The position numbers were made by a program, and so were the translations under genes. Below, piece by piece: positions 3-64,000 of a stretch of DNA of 64,000 nt. The DNA is taken from positions 1,149,398 to 1,213,397 of the forward strand of contig NC_053143.1 of assembly GCF_016808335.1 (NCBI RefSeq), read 5' to 3'. Each line of letters opens with the position of its first letter. Positions within the stretch are counted from its first letter, which is position 1. The DNA is from Panicum virgatum (lineage: Eukaryota; Streptophyta; Magnoliopsida; Poales; Poaceae). Under the pieces are notes generated by a model, which was given only the letters and a program-made list of their open reading frames with translations, was not told where the DNA came from and did no database searches.

Positions 3-1034
3 GGCCACCACACCGCGCCACGCACCCTCGTGGGTAACGCGTTTCGGCAAGGCTTTTACTGGCCCACCGCGGTCGCCGACGCCACTGACGTTGTGCGGAC
101 TTGCGAGGGTTGCCAGTTCTACGCTCGAAAATCACGCCTCCCGGCCCATGCCCTGCAGACGATCCCCATCACATGGCCGTTTGCCGTATGGGGACTGGAC
201 CTCGTCGGTCCGCTGAAGAAGGCGCCCGGGGGCTTCACTCACTTGCTGGTGGCGGTCGACAAATTCTCTAAGTGGATCGAGGCTCGACCCATCGGCAAGA
301 TTAAATCCGAGCAAGCAGCTCTGTTCTTCAACGACATCGTCTTCAGGTTCGGGGTCCCGAACTCGATCATCACCGACAACGGCACCCAGTTCAGAGGCAA
401 GAAGTTCTTGGCGTTCTGCGACAGCTTCCACAAACGTGTGGACTGGTCGGCTGTGGCACACCCACAGACGAACGGGCAAGTGGAGCGTGCCAATGGCATG
501 ATCCTCCAAGGACTAAAGCCGAGGATCTTCAACAAGCTGAACAAATTCGGCCGGAGGTGGCTCACAGAGCTGCCCTCGGTCATCTGGAGCCTGAGGACGA
601 CCCCGAGCAGAGCCACGGGCTTTTCTCCATTCTTCCTGGTCTACGGTGCCGAGGCTATCCTCCCCACTGACTTGGAGTACGGATCGCCGAGGATTAAGGC
701 ATATCAAGAACAACGAAACCAGCGAGCACGCGAAGACTCGCTGGACCAAGTGGACGAGGCTCGAGACATGGCGCTCCTCCACTCTGCGCGCTACCAGCAG
801 TCCTTGCAAAGGTATCAAGCGTAGAGGGACCGGCGCTGAGACCTCAACGAAGGGGACTTGGTGCTAAGGCTTCGACAGGACAACAGGGGCCGCCACAAGC
901 TCTCACCTCCATGGGAAGGACCGTACATAATCGCCGAGGTGCTCAAGCCCGGCACGTACAAGCTGGCCAACGAAAAAGGCGAAGTCCTCACCAACGCTTG
1001 GAATATACAATAGCTACGTCATTTCTATCCCTAG
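3..1034 (+). pseudogene. Ty3 integrase C-terminal part of pol, broken
   Basis: Inserts retroelement cDNA into the genome. The frame is open from base 3 to 821. It shows the end of the HHCC zinc finger (GHH near base 3, FYWP, then C25 and C28 counted from the codon at base 30), a catalytic core with D57 (WGLD), D116 (TDNGTQF) and E152 (GQVERANG), so D116 and E152 are 35 residues apart, and then the LPSVIWSLRTTPSRATGFSPF region typical of this group. In-frame stops lie at 822-824 (TAG), 837-839 (TGA) and 1011-1013 (TAG). The sequence between them still reads as the integrase tail (GDLVLRL, then LSPPWEGPY), so the original frame ran to the TAG at 1032-1034. The TGA could come from a CpG transition. 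Clearly a decayed copy. Confidence 0.85.
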
Positions 1035-4500: not shown

Positions 4501-5534
4501 CTCCGGGCGGCGTTGGTGTGGGAGAGAAGCTTGCTCGACGTCCTCGAGCCTTCGACTTTGCACCCGGGGGCGAGCTCGAAAATCGGCAGGGCCCTTTCCA
4601 CGAGAGGGATAACCCTCTGCCGGTGGAAGTTCGCGATGACGGCCGCTGCCGTCAGCCCCTTCTTCGCCAGACGCACCAGCGCGTCGGTGAGGCCCTCGAG
4701 CTTGGCCTGTTGCGCTGGGGGCGACACCCCCTAGTCCCACTTCGGCGGTCGCTCCCGGAGAACTTTGTTGGTGAACTCCGGAAGCGCGCCCTTGTGGTTC
4801 TGAAGGTAGAACCAACCTCGGCTACACCCAGCGTTGTTCGTCGTCATCTTGCTCGTGATGTAGAAGTTCCTCCGGGTCGGGCGGACGTGGAGCGTCAGGC
4901 CACCGGCGCGCGCGTACCGCCTCGGCTGGTTCCGCGCGTTCTCGACGAAGAGTTCGCCGCGGAACAGATGAACCCAGAGGTCCCAGTGGGCCTCGATGCC
5001 GAGGTACCCCTCGCAGACGGCGACGAAGACCGCCACCTGCGAGATGGAGTTGGGGCTGAAGTTGTGCAGCTCTACCTTGTAGTAGTCGCATAAGGCCCGC
5101 ATGAACCTGCTGACGGGAACACCGAAGCCCCGCTCGTGGAGGCGCACGAAGCTCACGACATAGCCTTGCGGGGGCCTTGGCTCGGTCTCGTCCGGGTGCG
5201 GGGAAATCCACGCCGGCGCCCCCAAGTCTGGGTTCCGTGGCAGCAGCCGGTCGGCGACCAGCTGCTCCAGGACCGCCACGGTGGCGGAGGACTTCCCCAC
5301 GGCAAGGGCTCCTGAATGTCCGACATGTCTTCGACTCGAAGGGGAATGTGGGAACGAAAGCTCTGGATGGCTAAGGTGCTTCTTTCTCCCTTCTCTCTCT
5401 CTCTCTCTCTTTTTCTCTTTCTCCCTTCTTCCTTCCGCTCTTGGCTGCGGGCTCAGGATGCAGGGATGCGGAGAAGGCGAAGCAGAGTAAAAGCAAATGG
5501 CCAGGTGAACCCGAAACCTCCCCTTTCTCTTCAT
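1593..5534 (-). pseudogene. Antisense Transposase_28-like gene of the Retand element
   Basis: A multi-exon gene opposite to pol. Likely exons, read on the minus strand: about 5534 to 4413, 4337 to about 3738, about 3654 to 2767, about 2687 to 2150, and 2083 to 1593. Splice sites that can be seen include donors GTAAGT at 4412, GTAAAT at 2766 and GTGAGT at 2149, and acceptors after TTTTACAG (4338), TTTGCAG (2688) and GCTCAG (2084). The first exon has a globular domain around YVVSFVRLHERGFGVPVSRF and EAHWDLWVHLF, which I recognise as the Transposase_28 (putative gypsy-type transposon) family. Later exons are acidic, Ala-rich and strongly coiled-coil (ELQRL and EKE heptads at 2170-2680). TAG stops at 4731-4733 and 2163-2165 interrupt the frame, so the copy is broken. 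Function of the family is unknown; a nucleoprotein or envelope-like role has no proof here. Confidence 0.65.
5391..5411. repeat. CT microsatellite
   Basis: A run of TC repeats continuing into a T-rich tract. On the minus strand it lies in the first exon of the antisense gene, where it codes an Arg/Glu/Lys run near the N-terminus, or in its leader if translation starts further downstream. Confidence 0.8.
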
Positions 5535-44645: not shown

Positions 44646-44757
44646 TACCTGAAATCCGATAGGTACACAATTTAGCGCCCATGCATGCATAACGCCCTTC
44701 AGTTGTTCACAATAAAAATATGTGTGAATGCATATAATTAAGATGCATGCCTTTTAA
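44646..44757 (+). repeat. Direct repeat, left copy
   Basis: Begins TACCTGAAATCCGATAGGT and runs through GCCCATGCAT and ATGTGTGAATGCATATA. Nearly the same sequence, in the same orientation, occupies 63886-64000. The two copies flank the whole transposon stack. Confidence 0.85.
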
Positions 44758-48386: not shown

Positions 48387-51201
48387 TGTCACACCCGGTT
48401 TATGAAGGCAAACCGAATGCATCTCATATGTGCGCCAGGATCAGTTTACACACATATGATTAAACATAAAGTAAATATCACAACTAGTGCAAACGTAAAG
48501 AGAGTATTAAAGATTTTATTACAAGACCGAATGTCGAAAGCGAATAAATAAACGTCTAAAGAGTAGCAGCGGAATCTTCTTCAGCACAGGCAGATGACTG
48601 GGAGACATACGCCTAGAAATCCTCGAAGTCTTCTGGAAACTCCGGGCAGTTGTTATTACGGTCTGAGCAGCAAGTATGCAAGGGTGAGTACACTTATGGT
48701 TGGTACTCAACAAGTGGTAGGGAAACAACTATAATATATGCAAGGCTATTTCAAGGAATAGCTGACACGGTTTTAACTGCACTCAGCCATTTTTAGTTGA
48801 TCATATTTTATTAGCAAGCATTAACTAGATATAAGTATATACCATTAAACTCATAAGATAAGCATATATGAAGATATACATCATAACCATAAGTAAAAGC
48901 ATCGATTTAGATCAACTTCAAGTTCAATTATCATGTGAGGGTCCAAGCCGCTCTTGACCGTGAGCACGGCTAACCGGTTAGTTTTACACTCTGCAGAGGT
49001 TGTACACTTTCACCACAATTCGCGTAAAAGCTCCGAAGAACTTTAAACCCAACCATGCAAGTGCGGGCCAAGCACCATATCACACTTCCTTAGGTATGAC
49101 TGCATAGGGACGCTACGAGGCCTTTACAAAGATTCCCTAACCTATGACAACCCGCTAAGGTTTCAAGTCAAAGCGGTCATAACACTGTCCTAATGAGGTG
49201 GTACCTTACCAAAGGACCATCAAACAATACCAATTGCCCCAAGAGGACCGAGCTATACCCCGTCGATGCATCCCCTCTTGCCCTTTCGGTAAGATTGTCA
49301 CAAGCTAGAGTTTCTAATTAATCAGCCAAGACCAGAGCCATATAGTAATTGTGGTTGTACTGTTTTCTTGGGTGGTTCTCCATGTTCCATTTAACACATA
49401 TGATCTTGATTAACAATATTAAACCATCATGAACTTGAAGTAAACAGGTGTAACATTTGTAAAATTATCCACCCATAACCAAGGTAAAGCAACTAGCAAA
49501 AGCTACCCAACATGAAATTAAACCCAAGTTGATCAAGGAATAAGGTATACAATACTAGGCATGTCCTTAACTCGGTTCCCATCAAATTATAGACTCATGC
49601 ATGAACATAAAAGTAAATGTGATAGATTTAGTGATTTCATGGGTCAAAAGTATGATCAAGGGTCCACTTGCCTTCCTCAAACTGCTGCTGATCCGGTCCT
49701 CCGAAGCCTTGATCTTGCTGCTGCTCCTCGAACTGCGGATCGTCTATCGCATCACACACGCACATGCAAGCAAACAAGTACAAACAATAAGAAACAGTAC
49801 ACCAAACAACAAAAACAGTACAAAAAGAGGTTACTAAACTATTCTACTCGTTGCAACGATCGCGTGAGCGCAAAGATCATCGAAAACGGATCTAAAACGA
49901 GAAAGTTATGGCTAAAACAAGATCTAAGGGCTAAATCGTAATTAAACCTTATACGCAGGGGCTAGATCATAAAAACAGGGGCTGATTTGTAAATATTTTT
50001 CAACAGAAGAGGACGGCGGGTTAATTTTGGAAAAACAGAGGGGCTTTAGTGCAAAACCGACACGGTTGACCGTTTTCCTGGCTAGGTTGACTTCGATCCG
50101 ATCTAATCCGAGCCGTGCGTTTTAGATCTGACGGCTAGGGTTCTTTGGGGCGGGCTGGCGGCGGCGGAAATGACCGGCGGTAAGTTAAGACGGCGGCGCG
50201 CGGCGGCGGGACGGCCGGAGTATGCTAAAACAGCCGTCCGGGGCTCGTTTGGCTCGGGTCTTGGACCGGGAGCACGCGCGCGAGCACACGAACTTGATGA
50301 AGGAGCTTGTGCGGAACATAAGCGAGCGGAGCGGCCGTGCGGCGGCGCATGGCGGAGCGGCGGCGCCGGCGAGCTAAAGCGGACGAAACGGAGCGTGAAG
50401 GAGAAGAAAAACAGGCCGATGAGCCTCACTACCTCGGTGCGAATCTCCTGGAGGGCTTGAAGTCGACGGGGACGCGTTGGAACGGCGGCGTCGCGAAGAA
50501 CCCCGAGCTCCAACAATGGCGGCGGTTTTGGGAGCTAGGGTTAGCGAGGGCTTGGGCGGCGGCTGCGGGTTTGGCGAGGGCTAGGAGGGTGTCTCGGGTT
50601 CCTTTTATAGGGGCGGGCGCTGGCCTTGGCGTGCGGGCCCGAGGGGAACACGGCGGCGCGCGCGTGGCCGGGTTGGACTCGAGCCAGAGTCCGGCTCGGA
50701 CGGGGGAGGGAGACGCTCCCGATAGGCGGGACCCCCTTGGCAGCGAGACAGGGAGGGGGGAGGGGGCGCTGGGCCGGAACGGGCCGGGAGGCGTGGCGAA
50801 CGGGCCGGCGGGGAGGAAAAAGGGGTGGGGCGCCGGTTGGGCCAAAACAAAAGAAAGCGGCCCGCGTAAAAGGAGAAAAGAGGAAAAGAAAAAGGTGGGC
50901 CGGGCTGAAAGAGAGAGAGAAAGAGAAATGATTTTCCAATTTCCAAAACGATTCAAACTCTTTCAATTTAAATTCAAACTCAAAGATTTGAATTTAAGTT
51001 GAACAACAAGCAAATAAAAAATGCAAACCAGCATGAAATGCACACACCTATTTTCCTTATATTTATTTTATGGCTAAATAATTTATTTAAGCTCGCGATA
51101 AATGCTCTAAATTCAAGATAAATTAGATGAAACCTTATCGAGCCTACAATAAACCTAATCAAATTTACTTAGGTTCCTAATTTGAAAATACGGGTGTTAC
51201 A
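48387..51201 (-). repeat. 3' LTR of the Tekay element
   Basis: Begins TGTCACACCC and ends GGGTGTTACA on the plus strand. TATAAAAG (minus) at 50602-50609 and AATAAA (minus) at 48515-48520 place about 2 kb of R between promoter and poly(A) signal. Open frames such as 50337-51002 plus are GC-rich shadows. Confidence 0.95.
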
Positions 51202-51203
51202 AA

Positions 51204-51215
51204 CCTACCCCCCTT
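51204..51215 (-). other. Polypurine tract of the Tekay element
   Basis: AAGGGGGGTAGG on the minus strand, two bases from the 3' LTR; primes plus-strand DNA synthesis. The gag-pol stop codon (51214-51216) overlaps it. Confidence 0.85.
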
Positions 51216-54200
51216 AAAAGGAATCTCGTCCTCGAGATTCGGCTGGGCTAGCAAAGAGCTGGGGGAATTCTGCCTGTAACTCATCTTCTCTTTCCCAAGT
51301 AGCCTCATCCTCTGCATGATGACTCCACTGAACTTTACACATCCGTATCCTCTTACTCCGAGTAATCCTCTCTAATGTGTCTAGAATTTTGACCAGATAC
51401 TCAGTATAAGTTAGATCATCCTGCACATTCAGTTCCTCCAGTGGCAACTTCTCCTCTGGCACCCTCAAACACTTTCTCAACTGAGATATATGGAACACAT
51501 TGTGCACATCGGACAATCGGGCCGGTAGTTCTAGCTCATAAGCTACTTCACCCCTCCGGGCCAAGACCTTGAATGGTCCGATGTAACGAGGTGACAATTT
51601 CCCCTTAACTTTGAAACTGCGCAAACCTCTGATAGGCGACACTTTGAGATACACAAAATCTCCTTCTTCAAAGATCAACTCTCTACGTCCCTTGTCTGCA
51701 TAGCTCTTCTGTCTTGACTGTGCCACTTTCAGATTTTCTCGAACAATCTGTACTTGTCGTTCGGCCTCTTTGATGATCTCTGGGCCGAACAACTGGCTTT
51801 CTCCCGTCTCACTCCAATATAATGGAGTTCTGCACTTCCTTCCATATAGTGCCTCAAACGGTGCCATCTTCAAGCTGGCCTGGTAACTGTTGTTGTATGA
51901 AAACTCTGCGTACGGCAAGCTCTTATCCCAACTGCCTCTGTGCTTTAGAGCGCAAGCTCTAAGCATATCCTCTAACACCTGATTGGTCCTTTCTGTCTGC
52001 CCATCCGTCTGCGGGTGGTACGCTGAGCTGAAGTTTAGCTTCGTATCCATTGACTCATGCAACTTCTGCCAAAACCGTGACGTGAACTGAGTACCTCTAT
52101 CGGACACAATCTTCTTAGGTACCCCATGTAAGCAGACAATCCTGGATATGTATAGCTCTGCCAGTTTAGCTCCTGAGTAAGTGGTTTTCACTGGAATGAA
52201 GTGAGCTACCTTTGTCAACCTATCCACAATAACCCATATGGAATCATAGCCATCCTTTGTACGTGGTAACCCCACAATAAAATCCATACCAATTTCTTCC
52301 CATTTCCATTCTGGTATTTTCAATGGCTGCAACAAACCGGCTGGTCTCTGATGTTCTGCCTTGACTCTCTGACACACATCACATATGGCCACGTGAGCTG
52401 CAACATCACGCTTCATACCATACCACCAATATCTTTCTTTCAAGTCCTGGTACATTTTGGTACTGCCTGGATGAATCGAATAGGCGGAATCATGGGCTTC
52501 TTTTAGAATCTTTTCTCGCAGATGATCCACCTCTGGCACACATATCCTCTTTCTGAACCACACGGTTCCATGTTCATCCTCAGTAAAATCAGGTGCCTTG
52601 CCTTTTTCCATCAGCTCCTTGATCTCTTTGATCTTATCATCCTCAAGCTGACCCTTCCGTATCTCTTGCTCAAGAGTCGGCTCGACTTCTATGGTGATTC
52701 CCTCGGTGTGACCAACAAAACCAAGGTTGAGTTTCTCAAACTCCCAACACAATTCTTGAGGCATCTGCCTAACTCTCATTGCGTTTACATGGCTCTTGCG
52801 GCTCAAAGCATCTGCAACCACATTAGCTTTCCCTGGATGGTAGTGTATCTCCAGGTCATAATCTTTTATGAGCTCTAACCATCTTCTCTGTCTCAGGTTG
52901 AGATCATTCTGAGTGAAGATGTACTTCAGACTCTTGTGATCAGTATATATCTGACATCTATGTCCCAACAAATAGTGTCTCCATATCTTCAAGGCATGTA
53001 CCACGGCTGCTAATTCCAAGTCATGGGTGGGATAATTCTGCTCATGCTTCCTTAACTGACGAGACGCATAAGCAATCACATGTCCCTCTTGCATTAGCAC
53101 ACAACCAAGTCCCTGACGAGATGCATCACAATATATATCGAAACTCTTGTGAATGTCAGGCATAGCCAACACTGGAGCTGTAGTCAGCCGCTTCTTTAAT
53201 TCTTCAAAACTGGTTTGGCACTCATCTGACCATACAAACTCTTTTCCTTTCTCCAATAGTGAGGTAAGGGGTTTCACTATCTTGGAGAAGCCTTCTATAA
53301 ATCTTCTGTAGTAGCCTGCGAGTCCTAAGAAACTCCGGATTTCTGACACTGTCTGAGGTGGTTCCCACTTCAACACATCTCTGACCTTGCTGGGATCGAC
53401 TGCAATTCCTCCATCTGTGATAACATGACCAAGAAACGAAACCTCTTTCAACCAGAATTCACATTTGCTGAGCTTGGCGTACAACTGATGCTCCCTGAGC
53501 TTCTGCAAAACAAGCCTCAAGTGCTCCTCATGTTCCTCCTCATTCTTGGAGTACACCAAAATATCATCGATGAACACCACTACAAACTTGTCGAGATACT
53601 CCATAAACACATTATTCATCAAGTACATAAAGTAAGCTGGTGCATTGGTCAACCCGAATGACATGACCGTATATTCATATAACCCATATCTGGTAGTGAA
53701 CGCGGTCTTGGGAATGTCTGACGGTCGTATCCTCAACTGGTGATACCCTGACCTCAGATCGATCTTGGAGAATACCTTGGCTCCTCTCAGCTGATCAAAC
53801 AAATCTTCTATACGGGGCAACGGATACTTGTTCTTGATGGTAACTTCATTTAATGACCTGTAGTCCACACACATCCTTTGTGTACCATCCTTCTTGTCCA
53901 CAAAGATCACTGGGGCTCCCCAAGGTGATGAACTAGCTCGAATAAATTTCTTATCTAACAATTCCTTTAATTGTTTCTTAAGTTCTTCTAGTTCACCAGC
54001 AGACATTCTATATGGTCTCTTAGCAATAGGTGCAGTGCCAGGTAAAAGGTCTATAATGAACTCAATGTCACGTTCAGGTGGCATACCTGGCAAGTCATCG
54101 GGGAACACATCTGAGTACTCGCATGCTATCCTGATGTCCTCTATCAGAGCAGCCTTCATCTGATTTACCGTACAATCTGCTGATGTTGGAGGGGTTGCAG

Positions 54201-55824
54201 CAAACTCAAACCTCTCACCGTCTGGGCTAGTGAGGAGTACTGATCTCTTGGCACACTGAATCACTGCATCAACCTTGCTCAACCATCCCATCCCAAGAAT
54301 GATATCGATTCCTCTAGTATCCAGTACTATGAAGTTGGCACGGAATTCTCTACCCATGATCTGGAATCCGACACCAAGGCACTGGTACATAGCCTTCATA
54401 TTTCCCCCGGGCGAACTAACTAGCATGTGTTTTGACATAGAATGCACGGGAATACCATATTTTGCTACGAACTGAGCAGAAATGAAAGAATGCGATGCTC
54501 CCGAATCAAATAAAACCATTGCAGGGGCGGAGTTGACTAAGAACATACCGTATACAACTTCCTGGGCCTCCTGAGCGGTCTCCGCAGCAACATGGTTCAC
54601 CCTCCCTTGAACATAATTCTGCTGTCCTCGGTTACCCTGGGGAGTCTGGTTGTTGTTCCTCGGCTGCTGCTGCTGTTGTTGTTGGGGGGTCTGCCTTTGC
54701 CCACTGTTACTGGATTGGCCTGGCGTACCCTGGGTATTCCTGTTGGGACAAGCGTGAGCAAAGTGCCCAAGCTGACCACACTTGAAGCAAGCATTGCCTC
54801 CAGAAGGTGCGGGGTTGTTGTTTCTCACAGGGGTACCGACTGGAGTGTTCTGGCGATTCTGCTGGGGAGTGGAGCGTTGAGCTAACTGCTGATTCTGCTG
54901 GTACTGCTGAGCTGGGCGCTGGTACTGATACTGATTCTGCCCAAAATTGACATTCTGTCCTCCTGTGCGGTACTGGTTACCTTGCGGGGGTCCAAAGCGC
55001 GGGCGCGAATTGCTAGACTGGCCTTGTGACTCGAACTTCCGCTTCTGCTTGCCCATCTCCTTGCGAGCATTCTCCACGGCGATGGCATTATCCACCAGTT
55101 TCTGAAAGCTATCAAACCTGTGCACCAACAACTGATATCTGATGGGTGCAAGCAGCCCTAGCCTGAAGTAATCCTGCTTCTGCCCATCTGTGGCCACGTC
55201 TGCGGAGGCATAGCGGGACAGCTGGATGAACTTGTCCCGATACTCACTTACGGACATTCCACCTTGCTTCAAAGCTAGAAATTCCTGCCTCTTCAGCTTC
55301 ATCAAACCCTCAGGTATGTGGTGCTCCCTGAATTGGGTCCTGAACTCATCCCAGGTGATGGTGTTTTGATCAACATGGGCGGCGGTATAAGCATCCCACC
55401 AGTCTGCTGCAGTTCCTTCCAATCTGCCTGAAGCATACAGTACCTTCTCCCTGTCTGTACACTGAACTATATTTAGCATCTTCTCAATGGTCTTGAGCCA
55501 GTCATCGGCATGAAGAGGATCTGGAGAGTGGGAGAAAGTAGGAGGTCTGTGACTCATGAAGTCACGGTGGCGATCTCTCGGTGGTGGCTGTGGAACTGGA
55601 GCTTGATTTGCTTGAGCTTGTAGATTGGCCATGGCATTGGCCATTTGAGTCAACAGCTGTGTCTGCGCAGCAAGGAACTGCTCCATCCCTGCTGCTGGTG
55701 GTGGCGGTGGCCCGTTGTTCTGGTTGTTGCCTCCACTCATGTTGTTGGGTTGCTGGTTGTTGCCTCTTCTCTGACGCTGCACTGGTGGCTGATCAACCCC
55801 TGATCCGGACCTGGTGTTCACCAT
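51214..55824 (-). CDS. Gag-Pol polyprotein, intact, with chromodomain
   Basis: One uninterrupted frame of 1536 residues from MVNTRSG (an upstream Met at 55851 would add nine). Residue numbers below count from 55851. Gag core about 100-270, CCHC zinc knuckle C355, C358, H363, C368; aspartic protease DSG at 449-451; reverse transcriptase about 610-800 with FIDD, catalytic D762 and D763; RNase H with D909, E946 and D971; integrase with HHCC finger (H1120 or H1127 region, C1157, C1160) and catalytic D1190, D1251 and E1287 with 35 residues between the last two; GPF motif near 1425; chromodomain about 1482-1533 ([20 protein letters not shown], then [16 protein letters not shown]). Gag and Pol share one frame without a shift. 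All catalytic residues are present. The chromodomain probably directs insertion into chromatin with given histone marks. Confidence 0.95.
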
Positions 55825-56114
55825 CTGACCGGTTAGACAAGTAAGACTCATGAAATAACCATGGTAAAATATAGGTGCAAGGATGAGATAGGGACAATAT
55901 AAAATAAAATAGATAACCCCAAGCTTTACTAACTAGCTAACCTTATTAAAAACTTGGTGCAATTATGGTCATCACTCCATAATTACACCGCAATCATTAC
56001 AAAAAAACCAACTCACAAATGTTCACAAAACCAAGCATTCAAATACACTGATTAACTAACACACTTAAACAAACGTTCACGAGCTAGCGATTACAAAAAG
56101 ACTCTTTACAAGAC
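55825..56114. other. Spacer between the extra frame and gag
   Basis: AT-rich noncoding leader of about 290 bp. A second start on the same RNA would need internal initiation, reinitiation or a spliced RNA. Confidence 0.5.
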
Positions 56115-57266
56115 TCAACCTAAACTCTTAAGCCTATCATCTAATAGAAACGGTTCTGGTAGCCACGGTCGCCAAAACGAAGCCTCTTGCGCGGGGGGTG
56201 ACAAGGCGGGATGCGGGGGCTCCTCCTCTGGAACTGGTGGAGGCGCCTCTCCTGCAAGCTGGGCCTCTAGCTGGCGAATCCTGTGGTGAGTTTCCCTCAG
56301 TCGGTCTTGGGTGTCGTCCAGCTGGATGACGACGTTCCTTAAGTCCGTGTCGACTCCGGCGAGAGCTCGCACTGTGACATTGACGCGGTTCTCCTCGTCC
56401 TCTCCAAGTGTCAACTCCGTATGCTCTGTCCCACGAGCACGGCGAGGAAGGTGCTGATAGTCTGTGCTCTCCAAGTCTTGGCGGTTAGTGTGGTTGAGAG
56501 ACCAGAGAGCCCTCATGGCAGCTTGGCTGACTGCGGCACGGTAGGTCGCCATGGGTGTCGAGGAATCATGTGCGGAGACGGTCATCATGCCTCGGGGTCC
56601 AGTATCCACCCTTATGTGGACCCGAGTGACGAAGTAGTCGCCGAGCGCTGGGTCTTCATAATGCCTTGTCTCGTACATGGGAGCCACGGGGTTGTGAAGC
56701 TCTTCCAGCACGTCCCGAAGCAGCAGGGGGAAGTGACCCACCTCGTGGGTTGAGGTGTAGACGCAGTACAGTCCCCTTTCTTCTGGCGGGTTATCATTCT
56801 GATCATCTTCTTCATCATCCTCATCGCCCGGGTCCTCTGGGCCTTCCGGGTCTCCTCCAGCTGGTGCAGGCGCTGAAGCTGCTGGAGCAGGAGGTGCAAG
56901 TGGCGGTGCTGGGGCTTCATCCTCTGACATCTCTAGGGGCTCCTCCTCTTCTCCTCCTTCAGCGACGGCGGTCGCTGGAACCTGAGCTTCGAAATAGGCC
57001 AGTGGCGGGCCTAGTTCGTGTACTGGTGTAGGCGACGGTAGGGATGGTTGTATGTTCCCGTCCGCATCGACTTCCCGGATGTTGCCTTCTTGGTCTTCAT
57101 CGAAGAAGTAATCCACCCCGGGCACTTCCTCAACCTCTTCCTCTGGCTGAACTGGAACTGGAGCAGGTACTGGGGCGGGTACTGGCTCAGCGGGTGCAGG
57201 AACAGTGCGACGGGCGAAGGCACGACCTCCGGTGCGCTTGCGTGCAGTCTGCCTAGTTCTGGCCAT
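56115..57266 (-). CDS. Extra retroelement protein with histone H3-like N-terminus
   Basis: A 383-residue frame between the 5' LTR and gag, intact. It starts MARTRQTARKRTGGRA. After Met removal, 12 of the first 15 residues equal the histone H3 tail; K4, S10 and K14 are all Arg, Lys9 in QTARK is kept. Then come a basic patch (RRTV), a Pro/Ala/Val repeat (PAPVPAPVPV), an acidic region (QPEEEVEEV; later DPGDEDDEEDD), a possible globular domain about 165-270 (LYCVYTSTHEVGHFPLLLRD), and a helical region about 290-335 (LRNVVIQLDDTQDRLRETHH) likely coiled coil. The frame is open 35 codons further up, but TTCTTCAG just before the ATG is a good splice acceptor and the upstream part looks like leader. 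I know no named family for the body. Role unknown; chromatin mimicry is inferred. Confidence 0.85.
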   Translation of the reverse strand: MARTRQTARKRTGGRAFARRTVPAPAEPVPAPVPAPVPVQPEEEVEEVPGVDYFFDEDQEGNIREVDADGNIQPSLPSPTPVHELGPPLAYFEAQVPATAVAEGGEEEEPLEMSEDEAPAPPLAPPAPAASAPAPAGGDPEGPEDPGDEDDEEDDQNDNPPEERGLYCVYTSTHEVGHFPLLLRDVLEELHNPVAPMYETRHYEDPALGDYFVTRVHIRVDTGPRGMMTVSAHDSSTPMATYRAAVSQAAMRALWSLNHTNRQDLESTDYQHLPRRARGTEHTELTLGEDEENRVNVTVRALAGVDTDLRNVVIQLDDTQDRLRETHHRIRQLEAQLAGEAPPPVPEEEPPHPALSPPAQEASFWRPWLPEPFLLDDRLKSLG

Positions 57267-57450
57267 CTGAAGAACATGATAAAAAGGTTTTAGAACATAC
57301 TTGAAAGAAAAGACAAGTATGCGATCAAGGTTGAGATAAAAGCTATCAATAAGGATTAAGCAAATAAGCATGAAAGAGCATGGCTACTAAGCAAGATAGA
57401 CCTTAATTTTCGACCATTTCTATCTAGGCTAATGTCCTACAGTCAACACT

Positions 57451-57462
57451 GCTCTGATACCA
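57451..57462 (-). other. Primer-binding site, initiator Met-tRNA
   Basis: TGGTATCAGAGC on the minus strand, four bases inside the 5' LTR; complementary to the 3' end of plant initiator Met-tRNA, the standard primer of this group. Confidence 0.93.
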
Positions 57463-57466
57463 CTTC

Positions 57467-60281
57467 TGTCACACCCGGTTTATGAAGGCAAACCGAATGC
57501 ATCTCATATGTGCGCCAGGATCAGTTTACACACATATGATTAAACATAAAGTAAATATCACAACTAGTGCAAACGTAAAGAGAGTATTAAAGATTTTATT
57601 ACAAGACCGAATGTCGAAAGCGAATAAATAAACGTCTAAAGAGTAGCAGCGGAATCTTCTTCAGCACAGGCAGATGACTGGGAGACATACGCCTAGAAAT
57701 CCTCGAAGTCTTCTGGAAACTCCGGGCAGTTGTTATTACGGTCTGAGCAGCAAGTATGCAAGGGTGAGTACACTTATGGTTGGTACTCAACAAGTGGTAG
57801 GGAAACAACTATAATATATGCAAGGCTATTTCAAGGAATAGCTGACACGGTTTTAACTGCACTCAGCCATTTTTAGTTGATCATATTTTATTAGCAAGCA
57901 TTAACTAGATATAAGTATATACCATTAAACTCATAAGATAAGCATATATGAAGATATACATCATAACCATAAGTAAAAGCATCGATTTAGATCAACTTCA
58001 AGTTCAATTATCATGTGAGGGTCCAAGCCGCTCTTGACCGTGAGCACGGCTAACCGGTTAGTTTTACACTCTGCAGAGGTTGTACACTTTCACCACAATT
58101 CGCGTAAAAGCTCCGAAGAACTTTAAACCCAACCATGCAAGTGCGGGCCAAGCACCATATCACACTTCCTTAGGTATGACTGCATAGGGATGCTACGAGG
58201 CCTTTACAAAGATTCCCTAACCTATGACAACCCGCTAAGGTTTCAAGTCAAAGCGGTCATAACACTGTCCTAATGAGGTGGTACCTTACCAAAGGACCAT
58301 CAAACAATACCAATTGCCCCAAGAGGACCGAGCTATACCCCGTCGATGCATCCCCTCTTGCCCTTTCGGTAAGATTGTCACAAGCTAGAGTTTCTAATTA
58401 ATCAGCCAAGACCAGAGCCATATAGTAATTGTGGTTGTACTGTTTTCTTGGGTGGTTCTCCATGTTCCATTTAACACATATGATCTTGATTAACAATATT
58501 AAACCATCATGAACTTGAAGTAAACAGGTGTAACATTTGTAAAATTATCCACCCATAACCAAGGTAAAGCAACTAGCAAAAGCTACCCAACATGAAATTA
58601 AACCCAAGTTGATCAAGGAATAAGGTATACAATACTAGGCATGTCCTTAACTCGGTTCCCATCAAATTATAGACTCATGCATGAACATAAAAGTAAATGT
58701 GATAGATTTAGTGATTTCATGGGTCAAAAGTATGATCAAGGGTCCACTTGCCTTCCTCAAACTGCTGCTGATCCGGTCCTCCGAAGCCTTGATCTTGCTG
58801 CTGCTCCTCGAACTGCGGATCGTCTATCGCATCACACACGCACATGCAAGCAAACAAGTACAAACAATAAGAAACAGTACACCAAACAACAAAAACAGTA
58901 CAAAAAGAGGTTACTAAACTATTCTACTCGTTGCAACGATCGCGTGAGCGCAAAGATCATCGAAAACGGATCTAAAACGAGAAAGTTATGGCTAAAACAA
59001 GATCTAAGGGCTAAATCGTAATTAAACCTTATACGCAGGGGCTAGATCATAAAAACAGGGGCTGATTTGTAAATATTTTTCAACAGAAGAGGACGGCGGG
59101 TTAATTTTGGAAAAACAGAGGGGCTTTAGTGCAAAACCGACACGGTTGACCGTTTTCCTGGCTAGGTTGACTTCGATCCGATCTAATCCGAGCCGTGCGT
59201 TTTAGATCTGACGGCTAGGGTTCTTTGGTGCGGGCTGGCGGCGGCGGAAATGACCGGCGGTAAGTTAAGACGGCGGCGCGCGGCGGCGGGACGGCCGGAG
59301 TATGCTAAAACAGCCGTCCGGGGCTCGTTTGGCTCGGGTCTTGGACCGGGAGCACGCGCGCGAGCACACGAACTTGATGAAGGAGCTTGTGCGGAACATA
59401 AGCGAGCGGAGCGGCCGTGCGGCGGCGCATGGCGGAGCGGCGGCGCCGGCGAGCTAAAGCGGACGAAACGGAGCGTGAAGGAGAAGAAAAACAGGCCGAT
59501 GAGCCTCACTACCTCGGTGCGAATCTCCTGGAGGGCTTGAAGTCGATGGGGACGCGTTGGAACGGCGGCGGCGCGAAGAACCCCGAGCTCCAACAATGGC
59601 GGCGGTTTTGGGAGCTAGGGTTAGCGAGGGCTTGGGCGGCGGCTGCGGGTTTGGCGAGGGCTAGGAGGGTGTCTCGGGTTCCTTTTATAGGGGCGGGCGC
59701 TGGCCTTGGCGTGCGGGCCCGAGGGGAACACGGCGGCGCGCGCGTGGCCGGGTCGGACTCGAGCCAGAGTCCGGCTCGGACGGGGGAGGGAGACGCTCCC
59801 GACAGGCGGGACCCCCTTGGCAGCGAGACAGGGAGGGGGGAGGGGGCGCTGGGCCGGAACGGGCCGGGAGGCGTGGCGAACGGGCCGGCGGGGAGGAAAA
59901 AGGGGTGGGGCGCCGGTTGGGCCAAAACAAAAGAAAGCGGCCCGCATAAAAGGAGAAAAGAGGAAAAGAAAAAGGTGGGCCGGGCTGAAAGAGAGAGAGA
60001 AAGAGAAATGATTTTCCAATTTCCAAAACGATTCAAACTCTTTCAATTTAAATTCAAACTCAAAGATTTGAATTTAAGTTGAACAACAAGCAAATAAAAA
60101 ATGCAAACCAGCATGAAATGCACACACCTATTTTCCTTATATTTATTTTATGGCTAAATAATTTATTTAAGCTCGCGATAAATGCTCTAAATTCAAGATA
60201 AATTAGATGAAACCTTATCGAGCCTACAATAAACCTAATCAAATTTACTTAGGTTCCTAATTTGAAAATACGGGTGTTACA
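57467..60281 (-). repeat. 5' LTR of the Tekay element
   Basis: 2815 bp, the same length as the 3' LTR. Promoter TATAAAAG on the minus strand at 59682-59689 with start near 59655; AATAAA on the minus strand at 57595-57600. The R region is therefore about 2 kb and U5 only about 100 bp. Confidence 0.95.
59682..59689 (-). promoter_or_regulatory. TATA box driving the Tekay element
   Basis: TATAAAAG in a GC-rich region, followed on the minus strand by a GC-rich leader. No upstream ATG is needed before a possible donor GAG|GTAGTG near 59508. Confidence 0.7.
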
Positions 60282-62702: not shown

Positions 62703-63811
62703 GCTGGGTCGGTCCAGGATGCAGAATAAGTTATTCAGCGCCCTTCCCTCAACTCTGAAATTGGAAAAATACGATCTCAAAACCGGAAAATTCTTCTTTA
62801 AACCGAAAAAAGATAAGTATCCATTCGCAATCGGAAAATTAGGATGTTCAAATCGGAAATTGTTCTGTGTGACCGAAAAAGTTAGCTCATCCATTCCGCA
62901 ACCAGAAAATTAGGAGGTTCAAACCGGAAATTATTCTGTGCGACCGAAAAATTTAGCTAAGTCATGGTCATTCATTTTGCAACCGAATAATGAAGCTCCT
63001 AAAGTCGACGGCCAAGTCCAAACAAACCTACGAGAAATAAACTGAGGCATTAGAAGACATCAACAGGAACCTTGACAAATAATCATTTGTTTTCATCTTA
63101 TTTTGTTTTCCTGTTGCAAAAAAATCAACATTCTTCTACCCATGTTGTCAATTTAAATAACTTATCTAACCTCAGTGTGATCCCACACCCAACGTGATTG
63201 ATATATTCATAATTTTCTTGTTAGAAATTTTGATTTTTCCGACCACGGCCCATACTCTTTCCAAGGCAAATGGATTTCTTATGTAGTCCAATATGCTTGA
63301 TATTCATAATTTTCTTGTTACAAATTTTAATTTTTTGGTTACAATAACACGTTTATGGTTATTGAATCTTTATTTTCCTGTTTCAGCCTATCTCGAGTAA
63401 TTTTCTGGGTAAGTCACAATTTTCTGGTCTGAGAAATACATTTTCTGGTTCCAGATCCTTGAATAGAGGTGTGTCATGTTCTTTTCCGGTTAAGATTACA
63501 AGTTTCCGATTTTGAGATTTCATTTTCCGGTTTTAAATCCCTGTTCATGTGTTTTTCCAGTTGAACAAAGAATTTTTAGGTTTCGGAATTCTATTTTCGG
63601 GTTTCAAATTCCTGTTCATGTGTTTTTCCAGTTGAACTAAGAATTTTTCGATTTCGGGATTCCATTTTCCGGTTTCAAGTCCCTATTTATGAATTTTTCC
63701 GGTTCAACAAAGAATTTTTCAGTTTTGAGATTCTATTTTCCGGTTTCGGGTTGAGGGCTGGTGTGTGTGTGGGGAGGGGGAGGGGCGCTAAATAATAATC
63801 CAACACCCAGC
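62703..63811. mobile_element. Inverted-repeat element with tandem arms
   Basis: The left end GCTGGGT, TTATTCAGCGCCC, CCCTCAAC, GAAATTGG is matched in inverted order at the right end (CCGGTTTCGGGTTGAGGG, GGGGCGCTAAATAATAA, ACCCAGC). The right arm carries about five units of 71 bp (63440-63745) and the left arm shorter inverted units. No target duplication found and no transposase, so the superfamily is open. Confidence 0.5.
63440..63745. repeat. 71-bp tandem repeats with ATTTTCCGGTTT
   Basis: Unit starts near 63440, 63522, 63593, 63664 and 63734; the last three intervals are 71, 71 and 70 bp. Shared blocks: TTCATGTGTTTTTCCAGTTG and AAAGAATTTTT. Confidence 0.85.
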
Positions 63812-63885: not shown

Positions 63886-64000
63886 TACCTGAAATCCGAT
63901 AGGTGCACAAGTTAGCGCCCATGCATAACGCCTTTCAGTTGTTCACATGGAAACAATGCAAAAATATGTGTGAATGCATATACTTGAGATGCATGCTTTT
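63886..64000 (+). repeat. Direct repeat, right copy
   Basis: Matches 44646-44757 with a few substitutions and a small insertion (about 63947-63957). It continues to the window edge, so its full length is not visible. Confidence 0.85.

Follow-up and report, generated by a model that had tools for sequence, protein, structure and literature searches.

Histone mimics such as the ARK sites of G9a, influenza NS1 and EZHIP are short linear copies of histone tails that can engage the histone-modifying machinery, and the VANC proteins of VANDAL DNA transposons are anti-silencing proteins. Closer to our subject, the extra frames of Poaceae chromoviruses reportedly occur only in 5′ regions and partially resemble H3 genes in some cases, a similarity that Steinbauerova, Neumann, Novak and Macas (Genetica 139:1543-1555, 2011, doi 10.1007/s10709-012-9654-9) are said to have read as a sign of cellular gene capture. 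Here we describe a frame of this kind in a 64,000-nucleotide stretch of the Panicum virgatum genome (contig NC_053143.1, positions 1,149,398 to 1,213,397, forward strand; hereafter the window), where a Ty3/gypsy retrotransposon with long terminal repeats (LTRs) carries an extra 5′ frame, P0001, whose product begins with a near copy of the histone H3 tail. It shares with the frames reported in 2011 the position upstream of gag, the host group and the partial H3 similarity, and the H3 resemblance has probably been seen before; the exon boundary, the mature N-terminal tail, the retention of K9 and the double-stranded RNA-binding domain (dsRBD) described below are not known to be part of that report.

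The 5′aORF proteins of maize and sorghum Tekay elements are described in PMC11728184 (2024) as DRBM-protein-like in structure and predicted to be nuclear, with a proposed role in the modulation of silencing; Vandal frames are mentioned there too. The window frame is like them in its 5′ position, its nuclear prediction and its DRBM likeness. The main text of that article does not use the word histone, and the H3 tail is the feature described here. The original prediction, made from the letters alone, had known of no description of such a tail in Tekay elements (Tekay being its own label, not one given by a phylogeny of reverse transcriptase, RNase H and integrase); this has to be corrected in view of the partial H3 similarity reportedly described in 2011 and the DRBM-like structure in PMC11728184. 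The account we favour, to which we would give about an even chance, is that the first exon of an H3.3 gene was captured and kept by most descendants as an H3-tail mimic, likely a decoy or bait against silencing through H3K9 methylation (H3K9me) and RNA-directed DNA methylation (RdDM).

The H3-like N-terminus and its relatives

57219..57266, minus strand: H3 tail-like N-terminus MARTRQTARKRTGGRA, from translation and family comparison; Lys codon 10 is the H3K9 equivalent
56118..57266, minus strand: extra 5′ frame P0001, 383 residues (stop codon 56115-56117), an open reading frame with relatives from protein searches
56118..56174, minus strand: C-terminal stretch unlike most full-length copies, whose matches stop at residue 364 (copy alignments)
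57267..57269, minus strand: CAG abutting the ATG and resembling a splice acceptor, with pyrimidine-rich sequence before it; 66 of 69 copies have AG at this place

The minus strand encodes MARTRQTARKRTGGRA from 57266 to 57219, at the very start of P0001 (the plus strand over 57219..57266 reads GTTSGALACSLPSSGH). Aligned without gaps to H3 residues 1-15, MARTRQTARKRTGGRA is identical at 12 of the 15, and the three differences (K4R, S10R and K14R) are all to Arg, as had been claimed. The protein holds 2 Lys and 29 Arg, against 97 Lys and 106 Arg in the gag-pol of the same element, and the predicted protein of one relative (P0015) contains no lysine but K9. At the other end, a basic stretch resembling a nuclear localization signal (NLS) is found in several relatives; one genomic copy (L003) matches P0001 across 1-383 and so appears to have the same C-terminal end as the window copy.

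Three protein searches (E <= 0.001) returned 15, 5 (the query among them) and 126 proteins, the first and third scoring part of the candidates only and 120 of the 126 being listed. The named sources are all grasses (Urochloa humidicola, Panicum miliaceum, Oryza sativa indica, Digitaria exilis and Eragrostis curvula), most entries carrying no species name, and no confirmed relatives were found in viral_contigs (query P0003) or genome_contigs (query P0002). From 133 proteins including that of the window, we kept the 50 with a readable N-terminus and excluded 83 that start later or are fragmentary, among them P0036, which begins inside the motif. The 50 rows are not independent, many coming from one species or group; in them the motif sits at the N-terminus and recurs among grass relatives, as anticipated. 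Residues identical to H3 number A1 40, R2 45, T3 46, K4 13, Q5 17, T6 45, A7 34, R8 44, K9 42, S10 36, T11 42, G12 44, G13 38 and K14 0; position 14 is Arg in 33 of the 50 and Lys in none. K9 is the column richest in lysine (42 of 49 rows). The claim that K9 is kept within QTARK thus stands for T6-A7-R8-K9, which are better retained than K4 and K14, and fails for Q5, with K9 itself absent from eight rows.

In the window's own genome (1.13 Gb, 627 contigs), P0001 matches at least 133 stretches, from which 70 loci were taken, the 30 best and 40 picked mostly for coverage of the N-terminus or lower identity; 68 include the N-terminus. The K9 codon is AAG in all 68, a constancy that may be partly mutational, since AAG is without CpG. 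Position 4 has Lys in 18 copies, Arg in 44; at position 10, 35 copies have Arg and 27 have Ser. Because five of the 68 (L036, L053, L054, L063 and L069) have an H3-like 15-residue start that keeps K4 and S10, K4R and S10R are, by this comparison, subfamily changes. The proposed loss of K4, S10 and K14 therefore holds throughout for K14 alone; other subfamilies of this genome retain K4 and S10, and S10 is present in 36 of the 50 proteins.

Likely origin in a host H3.3 exon

Twenty rows, a selection that takes in the longest matches, agree with H3 1-23 at 12-16 of 23 positions (the window protein at 12); over H3 24-44 the same rows agree at 0-2 of 21, an abrupt end at 23. P16 and Q19-L20-A21 also agree with H3 in many of these rows. 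Capture of a whole H3, with its histone fold, was rejected on the 0-2 of 21 identities over 24-44 and on the Pfam matches, which include no histone family. The sharp end at 23 and the agreement at P16 and Q19-L20-A21 also argue against chance or convergence without H3 descent, as do 1,000,000 random 15-mers drawn with the N-terminal composition of 20 members: the highest agreement among them was 8 identities, in 3 of the peptides, and so short of 9, in line with the earlier judgement that chance is improbable. This alternative can point to the sister families that lack the motif and to Ser10 codons unlike those of host H3; we find it hardly credible.

Sixteen host loci match H3 1-136 in a single frame, and in six the match is a stand-alone piece covering H3 1-25 or 1-26. 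All six were retrieved (two more partial loci, 1-28 and 1-53, lie outside this comparison). In two of them, L082 and L083, tgcag abuts the ATG and the exon codes 24 residues, then GTAAGG follows; in the other four, coding runs to the same codon and then GT, and the ATG has no directly preceding AG. The H3 match of the element ends at about 23, as does the first coding exon of H3.3, and this, together with the AG abutting the ATG, favours capture. These alignments point to H3.3 exon 1 as the best origin, the element codons being too diverged from the host exon to prove the donor.

The pyrimidine-rich stretch ending in AG (57267-57290, minus strand) is conserved at the same place in L001-L070. 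No good splice donor, however, was found within 600 bases upstream of the ATG in the window copy, so splicing of a leader to this AG|ATG stays a guess.

Rates of change within the motif

A rate tree was built without the motif from 49 of the 50 proteins (P0009, short, was omitted), with rates over 305 columns. The mean rate is 0.49 for R2, T3, T6, A7, R8, K9, T11, G12 and G13 and 0.60 for residues 1-14, compared with 0.97 for residues 165-262 and 1.15 for residues 31-164. Single sites give 1.42 for K4, 1.00 for Q5, 0.61 for S10 and 0.62 for K9. Parsimony requires 4-7 steps at A1, R2, T3, T6, A7, R8, K9, T11, G12 and G13 and 9-11 at K4, Q5, S10 and K14, the median elsewhere being 12 (gaps counted as a state there).

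Could a constraint on the DNA, such as a splice acceptor or start context, preserve the stretch and leave the protein likeness as a by-product? The near-constant AG in front of the ATG (66 of 69 copies) would fit, and so would the synonymous differences (pS), which among 20 representatives are also lower in the motif than in the dsRBD (0.33 versus 0.40). However, synonymous variants occur at T3, A7 and T11 whereas K4 and Q5, which lie between T3 and A7, are variable, which argues for a constraint on amino acids and makes the DNA-level explanation very improbable.

Predicted structure

56481..56741, minus strand: predicted dsRBD-fold domain, residues 176-262, from AF2, VIA-align and alignment rows; KKxAK RNA-contact motif not seen
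56256..56396, minus strand: predicted long helix or coiled coil, residues 291-337 (AF2)

The alpha-beta-beta-beta-alpha fold of a dsRBD is present in the predicted model of P0001. Among 19 members, Pfam gave no dsRBD family to E 0.1 and one weak Dicer_dimer match (E 0.067), and Foldseek alone gave no convincing match for the P0001 model (best E 0.12). VIA-align applied to the Foldseek candidates led to dsRBDs, and the domain is predicted to be nearest to those of plant DRB and DCL proteins. For the P0020 model, the best Foldseek match among viral structures was a weak one, to a Moumouvirus DRBM protein (E 0.0077).

Observations against a retained mimic

A number of our observations weigh against a captured exon kept as a mimic. 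As to the origin, an acceptor abuts the ATG in only two of the six intron-bearing host H3 loci examined, and the Ser10 codons of the element (AGC/AGT) differ from those of the host H3 genes read (TCC/TCG), so the element Ser10 was not inherited straight from host H3. An in-frame ATG lies upstream in the window copy, at 57371; such an ATG is found in only 33 of the 69 copies examined, and MART is therefore the start common to all of these. Position 7 is Pro in 10 of the 50 proteins. K9 is absent from eight (P0031, P0044, P0056, P0066, P0067, P0093, P0118 and P0129), and four of these (P0044, P0056, P0066 and P0067) are equally Lys-poor with their single Lys at another place, so the loss of lysines has not always spared K9. 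K9 ranks 72 of 305 by rate, slower sites including T3, T6, T11, R2, R8, A1, A7, G12 and S10, and it needs 6 parsimony steps, with Lys gained or lost at least 5 times; on this tree K9 is retained yet dispensable. KKxAK was not seen at helix 2, by eye, in 17 of the 50 aligned rows.

A search with P0020 gave 67 matches, in more distant families, of which nine short pieces were retrieved. Six (L071, L072, L073, L076, L077 and L078) begin MVLTRSVARS-like and have no H3 tail, so relatives without the motif, named beforehand as a sign against the idea, do exist in some lineages and not in most. An AG immediately precedes the ATG in five of these six frames too. Another piece (L079) has MAKTRQTARKSIGGHG, with a stop shortly after, and the N-terminus was not found in the fetched pieces L074 and L075.

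Lastly, the ratio of nonsynonymous to synonymous change (dN/dS), put forward earlier as a check, did not single out the motif among own-genome copies: it is 0.41 in the motif versus 0.45 in the dsRBD for 20 representatives, and 0.59 versus 0.48 for 7. Being like those of the rest of the protein, these values were not accepted as showing that the motif is under selection; they are perhaps owed to the decay of old copies.

The captured exon might also have been kept for a general reason, either as a basic, disordered and Lys-poor N-terminus for nuclear import or nucleic-acid binding or by mere descent. Arg at K14 in 33 of 50 proteins preserves the charge, the whole protein is Arg-rich and Lys-poor, some sister families manage without the motif, and the own-genome dN/dS is average. 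However, the uncharged T3, T6, A7, T11, G12 and G13 (ranks 10-89 of 305) all fall in the slower third of the sites, K9 is the most often retained lysine column, and if charge alone mattered, residues arranged as in H3 would not be expected precisely at the N-terminus. We regard such a general reason as possible but rather unlikely.

Proposed role

We infer that an ancestor of this grass LTR-element lineage would have acquired the first coding exon of H3.3 (residues 1-23) with its ATG-abutting acceptor, and that the exon would have become the start of the extra 5′ frame, most descendants retaining the mimic. Removal of Met would expose A-R-T-x-x-T-A-R-K-[S/R]-T-G-G with a methylatable K9; K14, K18 and K23 are gone from the mimic, and most lineages lack K4 as well. 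A nuclear location of the protein is probable, as several relatives end in the basic, NLS-like stretch. Its tail could act as a decoy or bait for proteins binding the H3 N-terminus and K9, namely KYP/SUVH writers, SHH1, ADCP1 and ZMP-type PHD readers, and this binding would dampen H3K9me/RdDM silencing of the element.

A K9-bearing mimic devoid of other modifiable lysines would suit such a decoy, and the copied stretch is the very one that plant silencing reads. SHH1, a possible recruiter of Pol IV, recognises H3 that is methylated at K9 but not at K4 (PMC7617993), and ADCP1 binds H3K9me2, more weakly when S10 is phosphorylated (PMC6318295). A decoy for H3K9me/RdDM silencing factors appears to be the likeliest role, unproven as it is. 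A more elaborate version, which we put forward tentatively and think rather doubtful, is a bait methylated by H3K9 methyltransferases, bound by SHH1/Pol IV and ADCP1 and joined to a DRB/DCL-like domain engaging small RNAs, that is, two host mimics directed at the chromatin and RNA arms of silencing.

If the tail does work as a mimic, the element would disarm silencing based on H3K9me through its likeness to the silenced substrate, a likeness that would go back to one host exon, and there would be a reason for the conserved extra frame of grass retrotransposons. A direct question follows: would silencing differ if a single lysine of this one protein were substituted? The function of extra frames is called unknown or speculative in PMC11728184 and PMC6317226.

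The element and its surroundings

48387..60281, minus strand: whole LTR retrotransposon, with GGGCG on both sides (5-bp target duplication), from the LTR pair and flanks
57467..60281, minus strand: 5′ LTR, 2815 bp, with 7 mismatches to the 3′ LTR (LTR comparison)
48387..51201, minus strand: 3′ LTR, 2815 bp (LTR comparison)
57451..57462, minus strand: primer binding site TGGTATCAGAGC, read by eye
51214..55851, minus strand: gag-pol frame (gag, zf-CCHC, protease, reverse transcriptase, RNase H, integrase, weak chromodomain), from the frame and Pfam

The LTR pair with its target duplication and the order gag, protease, reverse transcriptase, RNase H, integrase place the element in Ty3/gypsy. The extra frame lies between gag-pol and the primer binding site that adjoins the 5′ LTR, TGGTATCAGAGC being presumably of tRNA-iMet type. 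The 7 differences between the 2815-bp LTRs give an age of about 0.1 million years, at a rate of 1.3e-8 substitutions/site/year.

There is a further alternative, in which the K9-methylated mimic is a tether and not a decoy, docking a nuclear complex on heterochromatin through HP1-like readers and so aiding targeting or persistence. The same motif evidence would serve it, and the element has a chromodomain-like stretch at the integrase C-terminus (Pfam Chromo, E 0.0028). We know of no link between the extra-frame protein and integrase. Moreover, the Chromo match is weak (score 18.0, under the cut-off of 25.1) and its cage, by eye, keeps the Trp alone, a reduction like that of the type II chromodomains described in PMC6317226. 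The tether is, on balance, improbable, more so than a general reason for keeping the exon.

Near-identical repeats 19.2 kb apart, at 44646-44754 and 63886-64000, flank the element one on each side, which suggests that it is nested inside another LTR element. A tandem repeat with a 71-bp unit lies just beyond it (63474-63747). Elsewhere, an integrase core fragment (E 1.4e-12) occupies 3-821 (plus strand) at the window edge, and frame 4734-5534 (minus strand) matches Pfam Transposase_28 (E 9.5e-18), a domain reported from extra frames of Retand elements in PMC6317226.

Comparison with known systems

We believe four points to be new here, namely the exon boundary, the mature N-terminal position, the keeping of K9 where K4 and K14 were lost, and the presence of a dsRBD fold in the protein that bears the tail. 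None of them is among the literature matches listed, nor is any H3-tail mimic in a plant retrotransposon, these matches covering few subscription journals.

With VANC, the window protein has in common that both are element-encoded and both proposed to act against host silencing, a likeness by description only; VANC belongs to another class of elements, and the putative mechanism suggested here, an H3-tail decoy with a dsRBD, differs. With mimics of the G9a, NS1 and EZHIP type the common ground is the short linear copy of a histone tail, and the window protein has what defines that class, a modifiable histone site copied at a terminus. Unlike them, it belongs to an LTR retrotransposon and carries the tail precisely at its N-terminus, in a form resembling a captured host exon, and is known here from its sequence.
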